In this document: one piece after another, positions 39,335 to 45,619 of the stretch
How positions within the stretch are numbered: position 1 is the first letter of the stretch
Layout: every line of letters starts with the position of its first letter
Assembly (NCBI GenBank): GCA_011051715.1
Contig: DRKP01000045.1
Span: 1-58,014 of the forward strand
Origin: Sedimenticola thiotaurini
GTDB taxonomy: Bacteria > Pseudomonadota > Gammaproteobacteria > Chromatiales > Chromatiaceae
DNA: 58,014 nt
Direction: 5' to 3'
Translations under genes and position numbers: made by a program
The notes under the pieces: model-generated
The model's input: only the letters and a program-made list of their open reading frames with translations
Databases searched by the model: none
Told to the model about the DNA's origin: nothing

Positions 39335-39679
39335 CTAGAAGACCAGTACCTGGTCGGCGGCCACGGTGCGTTCAGCCAGCTCCTGCATGGTACTGCGCCG
39401 GGCTTCCGGAACGATGTCATCGTCGCTGAAACCACGGGCATCCATGCAGGTGCCGCAGAGCAGGACCTCACCTTTACGGATGACGGAGTTGAGCATCAGC
39501 CCGATGTTGTAAAAGCCCTGGGGGACGTTCTGGCCCCGTTTGGCGCAGACGATGGCATCGGCCATCAGGAACACCGTGACCTTTGCGTCCGTACTGCTCA
39601 GGGCCTTGGCCAGGCGCAGACCGTTGTAACTGCGTTCGGTGCCGTAGGGCGGGTCGTTCAGGATGATCAGGATATTCAT
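39335..39679 (-). CDS. DsrE-family sulfur-relay-like protein
   Basis: Small cytosolic protein of 114 residues with the DsrE/DsrF/TusD pattern: MNILIILNDPPYGTERSYNGLRLAKAL, AKVTVFLMADAIVCAKRGQ, and a conserved Cys pair in VLLCGTCMDARG. Such proteins carry persulfide sulfur or act as accessory factors in sulfur metabolism. ATG 39679 has GGAG upstream. Downstream of the hydroxylase gene and the rhodanese remnant on the same strand. Confidence 0.88.
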   Translation of the reverse strand: MNILIILNDPPYGTERSYNGLRLAKALSSTDAKVTVFLMADAIVCAKRGQNVPQGFYNIGLMLNSVIRKGEVLLCGTCMDARGFSDDDIVPEARRSTMQELAERTVAADQVLVF

Positions 39680-39940
39680 GCTGTACTCCGGTAGTGGTCA
39701 GGGTTGGCAATGGGCAGTCGCCGAAGACGCAGGGCAGCAGGCCGGTGACGGGCCCGGTGGTGTTGAATTCCCGGATCTCCCGTATCCCGAGGATTTCCGT
39801 ACGTGCGGACAGCGCCTCCCGCTTCCCCCGAATAGCCTGCGGCGTTGCGGATATCCAACAGGAGCAGGTCGGATTCCCGGTGCAGACGTTCGTGCAACTC
39901 GTCGATATTGAGGGTCGGACCATGGAACGCGGCAGGAAGG
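39677..39940 (-). pseudogene. Possible rhodanese remnant
   Basis: Reading from about 39940, one frame gives TLNIDELHERLHRESDLLLLDIRNAAGYSGEAGG, which looks like the first half of a rhodanese domain. The expected GHIPGA...NIP segment and the active-site Cys loop do not follow in that frame. Another frame then reads ALSARTEILGIREIREFNTTG. No start codon opens the first part. A decayed or frameshifted single-domain rhodanese is my reading, with modest confidence. Confidence 0.3.
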
Positions 39941-39956
39941 CTACCAGCGCAACCCT

Positions 39957-40820
39957 TTACTCTTCATCACTGTTGCTCCACTGGCGGCGGTTGATCACGT
40001 AGCCACTGACGGGGCCGGTGAAGGGCAGGGCCAGCATGCCGGGCAGCCGGTCCACCTTTTTCGGATCGCGATACTTGTGGATGCCGATGGTCATCCCCTG
40101 GTGGCCGGCCCGCGGCTGATCGCGGTAGGTGCCGAACAGACGGTCCCACCAGGTCAGGCTGAAGCCGAAGTTGCTGTTGGTCTCGTCGTCCTCCACCGAG
40201 TGGTGAACCCGGTGCATGTCGGGGGTGACCAGCAGCCAGCGGAGACGGCGGTCGAACGCCCGCGGGAGCTGGACGTTGCCGTGGTTGAACATGGCGGTGG
40301 CGTTGAGCATCACCTCGAAGATCACCACAGCGACCACGGGCGCGCCGAGCAGAACGACGGTGGCGAACTTGATCAGCATGGAGAGGATGATCTCCAGGGT
40401 GTGGAAGCGGGCGCCGGTGGTGACGTCGTAGTCCAGGTCCGCGTGATGCACCCGGTGCAGGCGCCACAGCACCGGGATGGCGTGCACCATCACGTGCTGC
40501 AGGTAGATCACCAGGTCCATCAGGATCACAGAGGCGACCACCGAAACCGTGAACGGCACGCCATAGTAGTTGAACAGGCCCCATCCCTGCTGCTGGGCGA
40601 CGGCGGCCACACCCACCGCGGCGGCCGGGAACAGCAGCCGCAGGACCACGCTGTTGAGTACCACCAGCCCCAGGTTGCTGGCCCAGCGGCCCGCCTTGGA
40701 CACACTGAGCGGGCGGCAGGGGGCGAGCACCTCCCACAGTGCCATGATGGCGAATATGCCGAAGAAGAATCCCAGACGAACCGCCAGCTCGTGATCGAGG
40801 ATCCAGTCGTTCCACTCCAT
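39957..40820 (-). CDS. Sterol desaturase / fatty acid hydroxylase superfamily membrane protein
   Basis: Di-iron membrane hydroxylase of 287 residues with four or five TM helices. The His clusters are present: HVMVH (about 112), HRVHH (about 124), a middle His in MFNHGN, and HRVHH again (about 205). The substrate is unknown; family members hydroxylate lipids. ATG 40820 is preferred over GTG 40829 because AAGGAGG lies 8 bases before it. Divergent from the ArsR-rhodanese regulator, which probably controls it. Confidence 0.88.
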   Translation of the reverse strand: MEWNDWILDHELAVRLGFFFGIFAIMALWEVLAPCRPLSVSKAGRWASNLGLVVLNSVVLRLLFPAAAVGVAAVAQQQGWGLFNYYGVPFTVSVVASVILMDLVIYLQHVMVHAIPVLWRLHRVHHADLDYDVTTGARFHTLEIILSMLIKFATVVLLGAPVVAVVIFEVMLNATAMFNHGNVQLPRAFDRRLRWLLVTPDMHRVHHSVEDDETNSNFGFSLTWWDRLFGTYRDQPRAGHQGMTIGIHKYRDPKKVDRLPGMLALPFTGPVSGYVINRRQWSNSDEE

Positions 40821-40853
40821 CCGATGCACCTCCTTCGAGGTTTGTTATAATTC

Positions 40854-40879
40854 ATCAATTAAATTAAAATTCAATTGAT
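40854..40879. promoter_or_regulatory. AT-rich dyad between hydroxylase and ArsR-rhodanese gene
   Basis: ATCAATT at 40854-40860 and AATTGAT at 40873-40879 form a perfect 7-bp inverted repeat with a 12-bp AT-only-rich spacer, inside a 60-bp stretch that is strikingly AT-rich for this genome. ArsR-family repressors bind such sites. It is likely the shared operator of the divergent pair. Confidence 0.55.
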
Positions 40880-40911
40880 ATATTGAACTATTCAAGATTA
40901 ATCGGGTGCCC

Positions 40912-41574
40912 ATGTCAACCGGAAACTTCAAACACGACCTGTTCAACCAGTTCGCCCGCGTCGCCAGGGCAATGGGCAACGGTTACCGGCTGGAGCTGCT
41001 GGAATTTCTGGCCCAGGGGGAACGCAGTGTCGATGCCCTGGCCAGGGTATCGGGGCTGACGGTGGCCAACACCTCCCAGCACCTGCAGCAGTTGCGGCAG
41101 GCGGGCCTGGTGGTAAACCGCAAGCAGGGGCACAAGGTCTTCTACCGCCTGAGCGGCGAGGATGTGACGGCGCTGCTGGGATCCCTGAGAGAGGTGGCGG
41201 AGCGGCACCTGGCCGATGTCGATCGCCTGGTGGACGACTATCTGAAGGTCAAGGACAGCCTGGAACCCGTGCCTGCGAAAGAGCTGTTGAAGCGCGCCAA
41301 GGCAGGTCTGGTGACGGTACTCGATGTGCGGCCTCCGGAAGAGTATGCGGCCGGGCACCTGCCGGGGGCGGTCAATGTACCTCTGGAGGAGCTGGAAAGA
41401 CACCTGGATGAACTGAACCCTTCCCGGGAGATCGTTGCCTATTGCCGTGGGCCCCATTGCGTGCTGGCCTTCGATGCGGTGGAGCAGTTGCGCAAAAGGG
41501 GCGTCGACGCCAGGAGGCTGGAGGGTGGTCTGCCTGAATGGCGGCTGCAGGGTCTGCCGGTGGAGACAGCCTGA
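40912..41574 (+). CDS. ArsR-family HTH regulator fused to a rhodanese domain
   Basis: 220 residues. The winged helix (about 10-95) includes GNGYRLELLEFLAQGERSVDALAR and LTVANTSQHLQQLRQAGLV. The rhodanese domain (about 120-218) has LDVRPPEEYAAGHLPGAVNVPLEEL and active loop YCRGPHCVLAF with Cys178 and Cys183. The HTH part has no CxC metal site, so sensing through a persulfide on the rhodanese or its Cys pair is plausible (inference). ATG 40912 is preferred over GTG 40906. Confidence 0.92.
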   Translation: MSTGNFKHDLFNQFARVARAMGNGYRLELLEFLAQGERSVDALARVSGLTVANTSQHLQQLRQAGLVVNRKQGHKVFYRLSGEDVTALLGSLREVAERHLADVDRLVDDYLKVKDSLEPVPAKELLKRAKAGLVTVLDVRPPEEYAAGHLPGAVNVPLEELERHLDELNPSREIVAYCRGPHCVLAFDAVEQLRKRGVDARRLEGGLPEWRLQGLPVETA

Positions 41575-41846
41575 CACAGCGTGACGAGTTCTTCACTGAC
41601 GCGTGAAACTCCGGGATGCAGGCGCATCGCGGACAGCGGCAGCCTCCCGTTCGGCGGCTACCCGCTCCTGTGCCGTCACCTGGCCGTGGCTGGGCAGGAG
41701 AGCCATCTCTTCTTCGGCACCACCCGCCAGAGCCTGCTGCTGGCCGCTCCCGGGGCCAGCCGGCTCCGGATCGAAACGTCCTGCGGCGAAACCTGCCAGA
41801 ACAACTGATTGAGGGTCCCGCCCAAAGCGCACTCGTCCACTGCGGC
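41575..41846. other. Intergenic region upstream of the mer-type promoter
   Basis: Together with the operator it makes a 345-bp gap. Several frames are open here, but their composition (Ala/Pro/Ser/Arg-rich, no motifs) looks like GC-rich chance reading. A merR gene, which one would expect opposite the operator, is not encoded. Confidence 0.5.
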
Positions 41847-41878
41847 TTGACACCGTACCAGGGTACGGCATCTAGGCT
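41847..41878 (+). promoter_or_regulatory. MerR-family promoter/operator (mer type)
   Basis: TTGACA (-35) at 41847-41852 and TAGGCT (-10) at 41873-41878 are separated by an overlong 20-bp spacer that contains the dyad CCGTAC-N4-GTACGG (41853-41868). The half-sites and their N4 spacing are those of the classical mer operator of Tn501-type systems. It lies 42 bp before the MerC-like gene. Confidence 0.8.
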
Positions 41879-41919
41879 CTCCCTGTCGGAACGACCGAAA
41901 GTCACGGGACAGGAGACGG

Positions 41920-42306
41920 ATGAACGCGTTGATGAAACAGATGGCCGGGCTCTCCAGCGCCGGTTTCGCCGGTGCCTGCTGCCTGGGTGTCCCCGCCGCC
42001 CTGGGTACGCTGACGGCGCTTGGACTGGGTTTCCTGATCCGGGATGCCTTTCTGATCCCGGTCTACGCCCTGCTGCTGGGGTTCACTCTCCGGATGCTCC
42101 ACCGGACCACCCGCCTGCATGGCCGGCGCACCCCATTCTGGACAGCAGTGGCGGGCAGCGTGCTGGCGATTGGCGGCCTCTACCTGTCGCCCTGGGTGGT
42201 CGCCGGCGGCATGGTGCTGGTCCTGGCCGCATCTATCGTCGATTTCGTTAACGGTAGGAAGGGGCCCTCCTGTGGCTGCGAACCGGAGCGACAGGGCGGG
42301 GTCTGA
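41920..42306 (+). CDS. merC: MerC-like mercuric ion membrane transporter
   Basis: Inner-membrane protein of 128 residues with four hydrophobic helices. The first holds adjacent cysteines, GACCLGVPAALGTLTALGLGFL, placed like the Cys pair of MerC. The C-terminal tail has IVDFVNGRKGPSCGCE, resembling MerC's ending with Cys residues. The mer-type operator directly upstream supports a role in Hg(II) uptake. No merA, merP, merT or merR is in the window. Confidence 0.75.
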   Translation: MNALMKQMAGLSSAGFAGACCLGVPAALGTLTALGLGFLIRDAFLIPVYALLLGFTLRMLHRTTRLHGRRTPFWTAVAGSVLAIGGLYLSPWVVAGGMVLVLAASIVDFVNGRKGPSCGCEPERQGGV

Positions 42307-42429
42307 GGCGGCTTGCGGCACCAATCCGGAGAAGAGGGGAGTCTGGCGCCGGCCGGCAGGTTATTCCACAGCGTCGAGGCAATCAGCCACCAGCATTTGT
42401 GCTGTTCCGGATCCGGTCCTTTCGCGGAT

Positions 42430-42738
42430 TCACTCATTGGAGGGGCGGCATCCGGCAAGGGTATCCTGCAAACTGCCCCGCTGCCCGGAAAACCATCGCA
42501 GCAGGCGCTGCTGAACCGCCTCCACCGGTTCCAGCCCGTCCATCAGGATGTGCCACCGGCCATCGCTGGAACGGGCGACGGCGACCGGTCCCCGTAGGGC
42601 CCCCAGCTCCAGGGCCCGCAGGTCGTCCCGGCACAGCTCGATGGAGACATCGATCGCCAGTGCGGAGGCTGCACAGCGCAGCCGTTTCTGCATCCGGGCG
42701 ATGCGGTCGCGGTCGCTGCCGACGAGCAGGATATCCAT
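42430..42738 (-). CDS. Thioredoxin-fold-like small protein without CxxC (hypothetical)
   Basis: 102 residues beginning MDILLVGSDRDRIARMQKRL. The pattern of a short beta strand, helix with Cys, VSIELCRDDLRALELGALRGPVAVAR and then a beta hairpin resembles small thioredoxin-like proteins (TM0996/MTH895 type), but the redox CxxC is absent. It starts 37 bases after the stop of the CDF gene on the same strand. The ribosome site is weak. Function unknown. Confidence 0.5.
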   Translation of the reverse strand: MDILLVGSDRDRIARMQKRLRCAASALAIDVSIELCRDDLRALELGALRGPVAVARSSDGRWHILMDGLEPVEAVQQRLLRWFSGQRGSLQDTLAGCRPSNE

Positions 42739-42775
42739 GACGGCTGCAGGAAGATCCCCGGGATCGCCGTCGGCG

Positions 42776-43675
42776 TCAGGGCAGATCGCCGGTGGGGCAT
42801 GCTGCCTGCTCATCCTCGATCTGCAGGGTGGCATGGTTGATACCGAAGCGCTGGTGCAGCATCTCCTCGATTTCCGAGCGCAACCCGGTCGTCCGGCTGA
42901 GCGGCTGATCACCGACGGCGATGTGCCCCTCGAAGTGGATGTCGTTCTCCGACACCTGCCAGAGATGGAAGTGATGCACACCGGTGACACCGGGAATCTC
43001 CAATATGGCCTTGCGGATCGCTGCCAGGGACAGGTCGGGCGGGGTCGCCAGCATGAAGACGCCGAGCGCGCGCCACAGGATCTGCAGGCTCTCCTTCAGG
43101 ACATAGAGACCGATCAGCAGGGTCAGGAGGGGATCGATCCAGCTGATGCCGTAGAGGGTGATGGCCAGTCCGCCCACGATCACACCGACGCTGGATACGG
43201 CATCGGAGAAGAGATGCAGGTAGGCAGCGCGCAGGTTCATGTTCTCCTTCGATCCGCGATGCAGCAGCCAGGTCCCCAGGACATTGGCCGCCAGCCCGAC
43301 GGCCGCCACGCTGGTCATCACCACACCGGAGATCGGTGTGGGATTTTGGAACCTGTCCCATGCCTCGAAGAACAGCCAGATGCTGATCGCCACCAGGGCC
43401 CCCGCATTGACCACGGCCGCCAGCACCTCGGCGCGCTTCATGCCGAAGGTGTGCCGGTCGTCACGGGGGCGCGCGTTGAGGCGGATGGCGATCCAGGCGA
43501 TGATCACCGCGATGCCATCGCTGAAATTGTGCAGGGCGTCGGAGAGCAGGGACAGGCTGCCGGAGATCAGCCCGCCGATGACTTCGGCTATGGTGATGGT
43601 GAAATTGAGCAGGATCACGATGGCCAGACGCCCACCGCTCTCCGGTACATCGTGGGAATGGCCGTGCTCGCTCAT
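42776..43675 (-). CDS. Cation diffusion facilitator (CzcD/ZitB-type) metal exporter
   Basis: 299 residues, six TM helices. The N-terminus has a His-rich MSEHGHSHD. The metal site is formed by LLSDALHNFSDG (TM2) and LHLFSDAVSSVG (TM5), i.e. the HxxxD-type pattern of Zn/Cd/Co exporters. A cytosolic C-terminal domain includes VHHFHLWQVSENDIHFEGHI. ATG 43675 has GGAGG about 9 bases upstream. Confidence 0.93.
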   Translation of the reverse strand: MSEHGHSHDVPESGGRLAIVILLNFTITIAEVIGGLISGSLSLLSDALHNFSDGIAVIIAWIAIRLNARPRDDRHTFGMKRAEVLAAVVNAGALVAISIWLFFEAWDRFQNPTPISGVVMTSVAAVGLAANVLGTWLLHRGSKENMNLRAAYLHLFSDAVSSVGVIVGGLAITLYGISWIDPLLTLLIGLYVLKESLQILWRALGVFMLATPPDLSLAAIRKAILEIPGVTGVHHFHLWQVSENDIHFEGHIAVGDQPLSRTTGLRSEIEEMLHQRFGINHATLQIEDEQAACPTGDLP

Positions 43676-44094
43676 CTGTCCTTGCCTCCAGACATCAAAC
43701 CACTTGGATCCCGGCCTACGGCCGGATGACGGGTTGTTGAGGGGCTCTTCGCATTTCTGTGCAGTTGCGAGTGGGAGATCGTTTCTCTCGCCAAGGCACC
43801 GAGGCCGCAAAGAGCGCCAAGCGGGTCATACACCCTTCGATCGCATTGGTCACCGTGAATCGGGATTCTTTGTGATCTTCGCGTTCTCTGCGACTTGGCG
43901 AGTACGGAGATCACCTCTGCCGCCAACGATTTCCTGAATGAATTCCTTCACGAGTCGCTGAACAAACCCGTTACCGTCACTCCGCCCAGGCCGGAATCCA
44001 TCACGTTCGACCGCTTGGATCCCGGCCTTCGCCGGGATGGCAGTTCGTTCAGGTGTTCGACAGGAAGACGAACCAGGCAGACAAAGGATGCAGG
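43676..44094. other. CDF-sigZ intergenic region with repeats
   Basis: 419 bases with no gene. It holds a GGATCCCGGCC...GGATGACG element (43704-43731), an imperfect inverted pair based on CTCGCCAAG...CAAAG (43787-43821 and 43868-43902), and an inverted pair of the first element (43975-44041). Confidence 0.6.
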
Positions 44095-44646
44095 CTATTT
44101 GCCGTCCGTGGCCCCGCGGGCGGAATCCGGCAGGAAGCAGCACACCTTCCCGCTTTCATCGAAGCGAACCCGGCAGACGTCGTGCAGTTCCCCCTTCAGG
44201 CGTCTGCGGGCCCGCTGGATACGGGACTTGGCGCCGGCCAGGGAGAGACCCAGGGAGCGGGCATAGTCGGCCTGGGTCATGCCCTCCAGGTCGCATTTCT
44301 CGATCGCGTCCCGGTCCTCTGCAGAGAGGCCTTCGAGCGCCCTGGGAAGGCATTGGGCGAGGTCCGCGACCGGCTCCGTCTGTTCCGTCTCCTCCGGTAT
44401 CTGGTCAGGGATCTCCTGGTACTCCCTGTGGGTCCTTGCATGGTCGATCAGGCGGTTCCTCGCCACCCGGAACAGCCAGGCGCGGGCATTGTCCAGTTGG
44501 CAGAAACGGCTGCCTTCCGCCAGCGCCTTCAGGAAGGTGTCCTGCAACAGATCCTCGGCCAGGTGCGGGTCATGCACACGGCCGATGAGGAAACCGCGCA
44601 GCTCCTTTTCATGCGCCCCCCACGCCTTCAGGACGCAGTTCACCAC
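44095..44646 (-). CDS. sigZ: ECF RNA polymerase sigma factor, SigZ-like
   Basis: About 183 residues. Region 2 contains RVHDPHLAEDLLQDTFLKAL and ARAWLFRVARNRLIDHAR; region 4 contains LEGMTQADYARSLGLSLAGAKSRIQRARRRLK. The C-terminal tail has Cys residues (DVCRVRFDESGKVCCFLP) as in SigZ proteins, a possible metal or thiol sensor. GTG 44646 matches the family length. An in-frame ATG 44733 would overlap the upstream gene by 38 bases. Last gene of the arsenic-cluster strand; no anti-sigma gene follows. Confidence 0.85.
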   Translation of the reverse strand: MVNCVLKAWGAHEKELRGFLIGRVHDPHLAEDLLQDTFLKALAEGSRFCQLDNARAWLFRVARNRLIDHARTHREYQEIPDQIPEETEQTEPVADLAQCLPRALEGLSAEDRDAIEKCDLEGMTQADYARSLGLSLAGAKSRIQRARRRLKGELHDVCRVRFDESGKVCCFLPDSARGATDGK

Positions 44647-44695
44647 ACCCGTCCCGGTTGCAGCGCCGTGGCTCTCCGTGGCTGCAGGGCCATGT

Positions 44696-45619
44696 TCATT
44701 CGAATTCCATTTGGGTGAAGATCGCCTGGGCATTGCGGCGGGCGATGCGCCCGGACAGCTTCAGGTAGCGGAAGCGCGACTGGTCGATTTCGGTCGCATC
44801 GATGGCGTCGCCACCGGCGTCGATCACTTCGGCAACCTTCTGTCGCAGGAACTCCAGGTAGTCACGGGTGTCGGCTCTCGCCTGCCCGGGGGATGCGACA
44901 TGGCCGTGGCCAGGGACGATCCACAGGGGATCGTAGTCCATCATGGTGTCGAATACCTGCAGCCAGCTGGCGCTGTCGCCGGCGGGACCGGTGCCGAGCA
45001 TGCGCTCCGTGAATACGATGTCACCGGCGAACATCACCCGCTGCCGGGGCAGCCACACGAACAGGTCTCCGACCGTATGGGCCGGGCCGGCATGGATGAG
45101 CCTGAATTCGACGCCGCCGAAGGTCAGGGACATCCCGTTTTCGAAGGTCTCATCGGCATAGACGGGCTCGGTACCGTCCAGCGCCGGGCCCAGCAGCTGT
45201 TCCAGCCGGTTGAAGTGATCGTTGGTACGTGCCCGCTGATCGGCCAGGGCGGCATCGGAGGTGATGATGCGGGCACCCCTGGCCTTGAAATAGCCGTTAC
45301 CGAGCCAGCGATGGTCCTGCCCACCGCTGTTGATGACGATCTTCACCGGCTGGTCGGTGATGCTCCGGATCGCCCGGTCGATCTGCTCCGCCCCCCTGTA
45401 GCAGCCCCCCGAGTCGATCAGCAGCGCCCCGTCGTCGGTCACCACCAGGCCGAAAGTGGCGTTGTTGGCGTAGTTTTCCGCTGAGCGCTGGTCCAGTTCG
45501 CCGACGATGGCATAGACGCCTTCGGTGACCCGCTGGATCTCCAGCGGGGTTTCCGCCAGCGCGATACCCGTCGCACCGCCGAGGCACCACAGGGTGAAAG
45601 TGAACAACAGATTCCGCAT
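44696..45619 (-). CDS. Exported metallo-beta-lactamase-fold hydrolase with altered zinc motif
   Basis: 307 residues with a signal peptide (about 1-22). The MBL fold is clear: EGVYAIVGELDQRS, LLIDSGG, AGPAHTVGDLFVWLP (His181), FAGDIVF (Asp200) and VPGHGHV (His238). The first zinc motif HxHxDH reads SGGQDH at 98-103, keeping Asp102-His103 but lacking the first two His. It resembles SoxH/quinoprotein-associated MBL proteins. It lies 18 bases downstream of arsJ on the same strand, so it probably belongs to that operon. Confidence 0.86.
   Translation of the reverse strand: MRNLLFTFTLWCLGGATGIALAETPLEIQRVTEGVYAIVGELDQRSAENYANNATFGLVVTDDGALLIDSGGCYRGAEQIDRAIRSITDQPVKIVINSGGQDHRWLGNGYFKARGARIITSDAALADQRARTNDHFNRLEQLLGPALDGTEPVYADETFENGMSLTFGGVEFRLIHAGPAHTVGDLFVWLPRQRVMFAGDIVFTERMLGTGPAGDSASWLQVFDTMMDYDPLWIVPGHGHVASPGQARADTRDYLEFLRQKVAEVIDAGGDAIDATEIDQSRFRYLKLSGRIARRNAQAIFTQMEFE

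Follow-up and report, generated by a model that had tools for sequence, protein, structure and literature searches.

Locus and promoter architecture

The window analysed here is the whole 58,014-nucleotide contig DRKP01000045.1 (C45) of Sedimenticola thiotaurini, one of the 194 contigs of a genome that is 99.99% complete with 2.35% contamination. On its forward strand, at 41847-42306, a gene for a MerC-like membrane protein stands behind a promoter that carries the palindrome typical of operators of mer (mercury resistance) genes:

41847-41852, + strand: -35 box TTGACA, assigned from sequence and spacing
41853-41868, + strand: mer-type operator palindrome CCGTAC-CAGG-GTACGG (CCGTACCAGGGTACGG), an exact core match
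41873-41878, + strand: -10 box TAGGCT, 20 bp from the -35 box
41911-41915, + strand: probable ribosome-binding sequence AGGAG, four bases before the ATG
41920-42306, + strand: gene for a MerC-like membrane protein of 128 amino acids, matched by Pfam MerC

Positions 41847-41878 thus read TTGACA, CCGTACCAGGGTACGG, CATC and TAGGCT, with the palindrome directly abutting the -35 box and occupying bases 1-16 of a 20-bp spacer; an initial annotation of this DNA had placed the classical mer operator core correctly within such a spacer. This is the arrangement described for MerR-controlled mer promoters, namely a palindrome between the -35 and -10 boxes with a spacer of 19 or 20 bp (PMC1526738; this and the other papers are cited from excerpts).

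The palindrome is the sole exact match to the core CCGTAC-N4-GTACGG both in the window and in the 3.39-Mb genome. Allowing up to two mismatches, the window has 5 core sites against 1.58 expected, a number reached in 2 of 100 shuffles, and 10 more sites with one mismatch occur in the genome, among them the operator of merTPA on a second contig, C99. Such near matches are what would favor a chance palindrome in the intergenic DNA before an unrelated membrane protein: at one mismatch or fewer, the genome has 11 core sites per strand, and because a reversed control pattern reaches 6 per strand the bare core is by itself weak evidence. However, exact sites joining the -35 box to the palindrome are expected only about 0.001 times genome-wide (a base-composition estimate) and two are present; moreover, the -10 box is correctly spaced and a MerC-like gene lies directly downstream. 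Chance was rejected for the combination of -35 box, palindrome and -10 box, and it is exceedingly improbable as the origin of this arrangement. An extended pattern, TTGACNCCGTACNNNNGTACNGNNTC, built from the C45 site, the C99 merTPA site and the classical operator, has exact matches in the 3.39 Mb only at the C45 merC and C99 merTPA sites; its further matches are reverse readings of both at 2 mismatches and four other sites at 3, so that up to 3 mismatches it yields 8 rows versus 4 (2 per strand) for the reversed control. Judged by its sequence, the combination of -35 box and palindrome represents strong evidence for an operator.

A divergent MerC-like protein

The best Pfam family of the 128-residue protein is MerC (PF03203; E 1.8e-5, 25.7 bits, profile positions 3-107 of 108), which agrees with its first labelling as MerC-like, though the match lies under the family cut-off. 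A vicinal cysteine pair in the first membrane helix is a feature of the MerC family and is present here: Cys20-Cys21 lie near the first helix, with two further cysteines, Cys118 and Cys120, at the C-terminus. In an alignment of 13 MerC-like members the motif Cys20-Cys21-Leu-Gly is invariant in all 13; the C-terminal cysteines are not. A structure model of middling confidence (mean predicted local distance difference test score 69.9, predicted template modelling score 0.49) has helices at 2-22, 24-39, 43-67, 71-89 and 91-113, and MerC has been described with four membrane helices (PMC3466566).

The mer genes on contig C99

In accord with the initial annotation, neither MerR nor MerA family matches occur among nine proteins scanned from 39338-45619, and the MerR_1 (6), MerA (13) and MerR (4) family matches of the genome all lie on contigs other than C45. 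The same annotation had called merC an orphan that would mediate uptake without detoxification unless merR and merA act in trans, an account that holds for the window but fails for the genome, where C99 supplies these very genes:

C99 4388-4810, + strand: merR, start chosen by hand
C99 7983-9623, - strand: merA, by NCBIfam
C99 9628-9942, - strand: merP, by NCBIfam
C99 9970 to about 10323, - strand: merT, by NCBIfam, below the cut-off

Three of the products exceed their NCBIfam cut-offs: MerR with 158.0 bits (cut-off 150.85), MerA with 566.8 (454.45) and MerP with 96.2 (92.55). The genome thus does contain a MerR-type protein, the absence of which had been named as grounds for giving up the idea. 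The C99 MerR has cysteines at what we take to be the mercury-binding positions of Tn501 MerR. Its closest alignments are with the mercury regulators of PDB entries 5crl and 4ua1, in which the cysteines are matched with one extra residue between the last two. Upstream of C99 merT stands TTGACT-CCGTACCCGGGTACAG-GGTC-TATCCT, with a 20-bp spacer as at C45 merC; a search of the genome for merR and merA leads to C99, where merTPA follows an operator of the same anatomy. No extended-operator match within 3 mismatches precedes C99 merR, so the gene shows no sign of autoregulation by way of this motif. It is also set apart from merTPA (L025:4388-10387) by three open reading frames (ORFs): one of 613 amino acids without an NCBIfam family, papain-like by reading of its translation; one of 194 amino acids that is weakly muramidase-like (32.3 bits versus 240); and a small one without a family. 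Were C45 and C99 parts of one replicon, at least about 26 kb would separate the merC operator from that of merTPA. The arrangement departs from the classical mer operon, in which merC is clustered with merA and merR, as here merC is on C45 and merR and merTPA are on C99.

Since the merC and merTPA promoters share operator anatomy and 20-bp spacing, we propose, with a probability of roughly 0.8, that the segment 41847-42306 forms its own transcription unit within a split mer regulon, controlled in trans by the C99 MerR and with its MerC feeding the C99 MerA. This proposal starts from direct observations, namely the anatomy of promoter and operator, the relationship of the gene, and the merR, merA, merP and merT genes and like operator elsewhere in the genome. 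If C45 and C99 belong to one genome, harm from uptake without reduction is no longer a concern. MerR is described as activating transcription by untwisting an over-long promoter spacer (PMC11049809). Accordingly with that scheme, MerR made from C99 would bind the C45 palindrome in trans and keep the over-long promoter inactive; once bound to Hg(II), it would untwist the promoter and allow RNA polymerase to start, such that merC would be induced together with MerT, MerP and MerA. The MerC-like protein would then move Hg(II) across the inner membrane via its cysteine pair and pass it to MerA for reduction to Hg(0).

Several points weigh against this proposal: 1) the 128-residue protein misses the Pfam MerC cut-off of 27.6 bits and, with 10.7 bits, the cut-off of 170 of the NCBIfam MerC equivalog NF010318, and because both are missed it is best treated as a divergent MerC, whose membership in MerC proper is provisional; 2) the C99 MerT, at 132.6 bits, is under its cut-off of 150; 3) with 194 contigs and 2.35% contamination, C99 could in principle be foreign to the genome; 4) we infer MerR binding, mercury induction, transport and the hand-over to MerA from sequence; 5) a survey for such operators in 210 genomes of the order returned 30 rows against 26 for the reversed control (hand count). 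As to the third point, tetranucleotide use in C45 correlates with that in the first 20 kb of C99 at r 0.964, and three 20-kb pieces of C45 correlate with the remaining C45 with r 0.886-0.932.

Operators across the order

The survey was restricted to operator sites with 0 or 1 mismatch because searches at 3 mismatches did no better than the reversed control (14 versus 16 in G034, 20 versus 52 in G081 and 35 versus 65 in G082). Given the similar count for the control pattern, the evidence from the survey is linkage to mer genes and not the raw number of sites. Two of the 30 rows (G034 C17 and G065 C107) duplicate a palindrome in its reverse reading, leaving 28 sites in 24 of the 210 genomes, and at 22 of these sites a mer gene or part of one follows (parts only in G109 and G163). 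At one further site, in G173 (L127), an operator with a 20-bp spacer is followed within 0.3 kb by a short remnant of both merA ends and then by an efflux adaptor-like gene. The five sites that are not followed by a mer gene are those of G063 C26, G093 and G195, all three lacking a -10 box, and of G074 and G209; in G074 merT/merP-like genes are present on the other strand only. Across the 28 sites, the -10 box is TANNNT at 20 bp in 20, CANNNT at 20 bp in 3 and TANNNT at 19 bp in 2, with none in 3. As TANNNT at 20 bp accounts for 20 of 28, the 20-bp-spacer form is the usual mer promoter form in this order.

Two further observations emerged from these sites. In G209 (L129:263-1178), a mer-type operator with a 19-bp spacer precedes a gene for a TVP38/DedA-like membrane protein (by reading), possibly a further member of the regulon. 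In G065 (L115:1-1528), a BufA2 gene (86.8 bits, cut-off 60), a second similar gene and an MNIO-like gene (by reading) are divergent from a mer operator with merC and merA behind it, and could be a bufferin cluster sharing the control region.

Relatives of the MerC-like protein

The protein is present in 4 of the 210 genomes, its own included, and the other three differ in layout. In G034, merR on contig C57 is followed by a one-mismatch operator and the MerC-like gene, and merA stands behind an exact operator on C17, away from that gene; thus, G034 appears to harbor a second split mer regulon. The order in G081 is operator, merT, merP, merA and merC. In G082 (L063:4978-6616), an intact mer operator is followed by the start of merT joined to merA by a deletion and then by merC, which is the only mer membrane transporter recognised in the 11-kb stretch and may represent a natural case of MerC as the main mercury importer. 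The best MerR proteins of G081 and G082 are both just under the MerR cut-off, the former about 17 kb from the mer operator on the same contig and the latter on a different contig.

One protein query against genome contigs returned a single relative (L024, an Opitutales metagenome-assembled genome, 36%). A class-wide profile search gave hits in 43 of 369 genomes; its alignment (A1) included a MerT row, so this number is a MerC-like/MerT mixture and not a count of MerC. Eleven of the 30 loci listed as L080-L108 and L037 were read (L080-L090), yielding eight MerC-like proteins, two methyltransferase-like proteins with a MerC-like stretch and one MerT; the merA neighbours of these loci were identified by reading translations. 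In all eight MerC-like loci (L080-L087) the gene is preceded by merA in the same orientation, directly in four of them and at no more than 1.3 kb in the others. Over the alignment, 10 of the 13 MerC-like genes follow a merA of like orientation at a distance of up to 1.3 kb, and the remaining three are the one behind merR and operator, the window gene and L024, the neighbourhood of which fell outside the analysis. The two methyltransferase-like proteins (L088:655-2070 of G519 and L089:664-2094 of G534) are ArsM-like by reading, and it is their C-terminal part that matches the MerC/MerT profile.

A leftover transporter from an older mer operon, with an intact-looking operator and little or no contribution while MerT and MerP do the work, would account for a merC standing alone. 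Indeed, C99 has merT and merP, so merC may be redundant, and decayed mer pieces lie behind intact operators in G173, G163 and G109. However, C45 shows no damage to the operator, the -35 and -10 boxes, the ribosome site or the reading frame, and the protein retains the residues that all 13 aligned members share, which makes such a relic improbable.

A tail of BufA2, a metallophore domain of the bufferin type, scores above the NCBIfam cut-off in 6 of the 13 aligned members; the MerC-BufA2 fusions are L064:5775-6488 and the MerC-like genes of L080, L081, L082, L084 and L085, found mostly in mer clusters. It is conceivable, if doubtful, that these proteins constitute a divergent MerC lineage, partly fused to BufA2 and underscored or missed by current MerC models, and that the member studied here, standing apart under a MerR promoter of its own with a 20-bp spacer, is an independently tuned second mercury importer; it would then perhaps handle another mercury species than MerT, or draw on a buffered pool in the periplasm that MerT does not serve.

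Neighbouring genes and alternative control

The merC unit is flanked by the following genes, assigned by family scans:

40906-41574, + strand: ArsR-family regulator fused to a rhodanese domain
within 42776-43720 and 44098-45619, - strand: CDF cation efflux transporter, SigZ-like sigma factor (166 bits versus a cut-off of 168.65) and metallo-beta-lactamase-fold hydrolase

A small ORF at 41581-41808 was considered as a MerB remnant and rejected, as it has no Pfam family and one irrelevant weak NCBIfam match; it also lacks similarity to the protein of L085 that was labelled MerB-like by reading alone.

These surroundings bear on whether merC instead answers to a different regulator, or to a different metal, through the ArsR-rhodanese protein or a second MerR-type protein. 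The ArsR-family gene stops some 0.27 kb short of the merC operator, and arsR has been found in 8.1% of mer operons (PMC3466566); the six MerR_1 matches in the genome include others besides that on C99, with 91.8, 75.9 and 43.8 bits against MerR. Yet palindrome and spacing are the same as at the C99 merTPA promoter, and the MerR-type proteins of C79, C188 and C6 reach no NCBIfam cut-off among the matches listed, the best of these being CueR (110 of 147.4), ZntR-type (78.5 of 143) and HspR (36.4 of 105); this check covered C79, C188 and C6, with C23 and C115 outside it. Control by such a protein is accordingly rather remote, and the split mer regulon under the C99 MerR is preferred.

Comparison with known systems

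Operons of the Tn501/Tn21 type likewise have CCGTAC-N4-GTACGG beside the -35 box and a transporter under MerR control (PMC11049809, PMC1526738), but their merR lies divergent to the operator and their spacer measures 19 bp, as opposed to a merR on a separate contig and a 20-bp spacer in the present genome. Mixed-type mer promoters with the proteobacterial palindrome in a 20-bp spacer, such as that of Providencia rettgeri merT, were called surprising in 2006 (Permina et al. 2006, PMC1526738) and are the usual form in this order. Among 272 mer operons surveyed, merR or arsR was within the operon in all but two taxa (PMC3466566). A precedent for a detached merR is Thiobacillus (now Acidithiobacillus) ferrooxidans. 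In its type strain the locus tags of the MerA/MerC/MerD candidates lie far from those of the MerR-like ones (PMC2621215), but merC is tagged next to merA, whereas here merC is alone. In Synechocystis, the distant Slr0701 (MerR) was experimentally shown to control Slr1849 (MerA) in trans via a shared element (PMC6741143), a system from a different phylum with no merC and a different operator. Similarly, zntR is usually separate from zntA (PMC1526738). MerC|Buf2 fusions of the same MerC lineage are already published (PMC12452194), and the window protein lacks the Buf2 tail; the excerpts of PMC8261052 and PMC13097082 mention neither a detached merC nor a MerC fusion. The kind of system is a known one, a MerR-controlled mer transporter, and the listings from searches of the open-licence literature gave no precedent for a lone merC unit under its own operator.

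Implications

Together, these observations suggest that the merC unit most likely belongs, as an ordinary if scattered component, to a functioning system of mercury resistance, by which a seemingly harmful orphan importer becomes a member of a mer regulon dispersed over the genome. Such a unit would escape surveys limited to merA neighbourhoods. It also adds a divergent MerC lineage, as well as a collection of mer promoters with 20-bp spacers that could serve to test the 19-bp rule of proteobacterial MerR.
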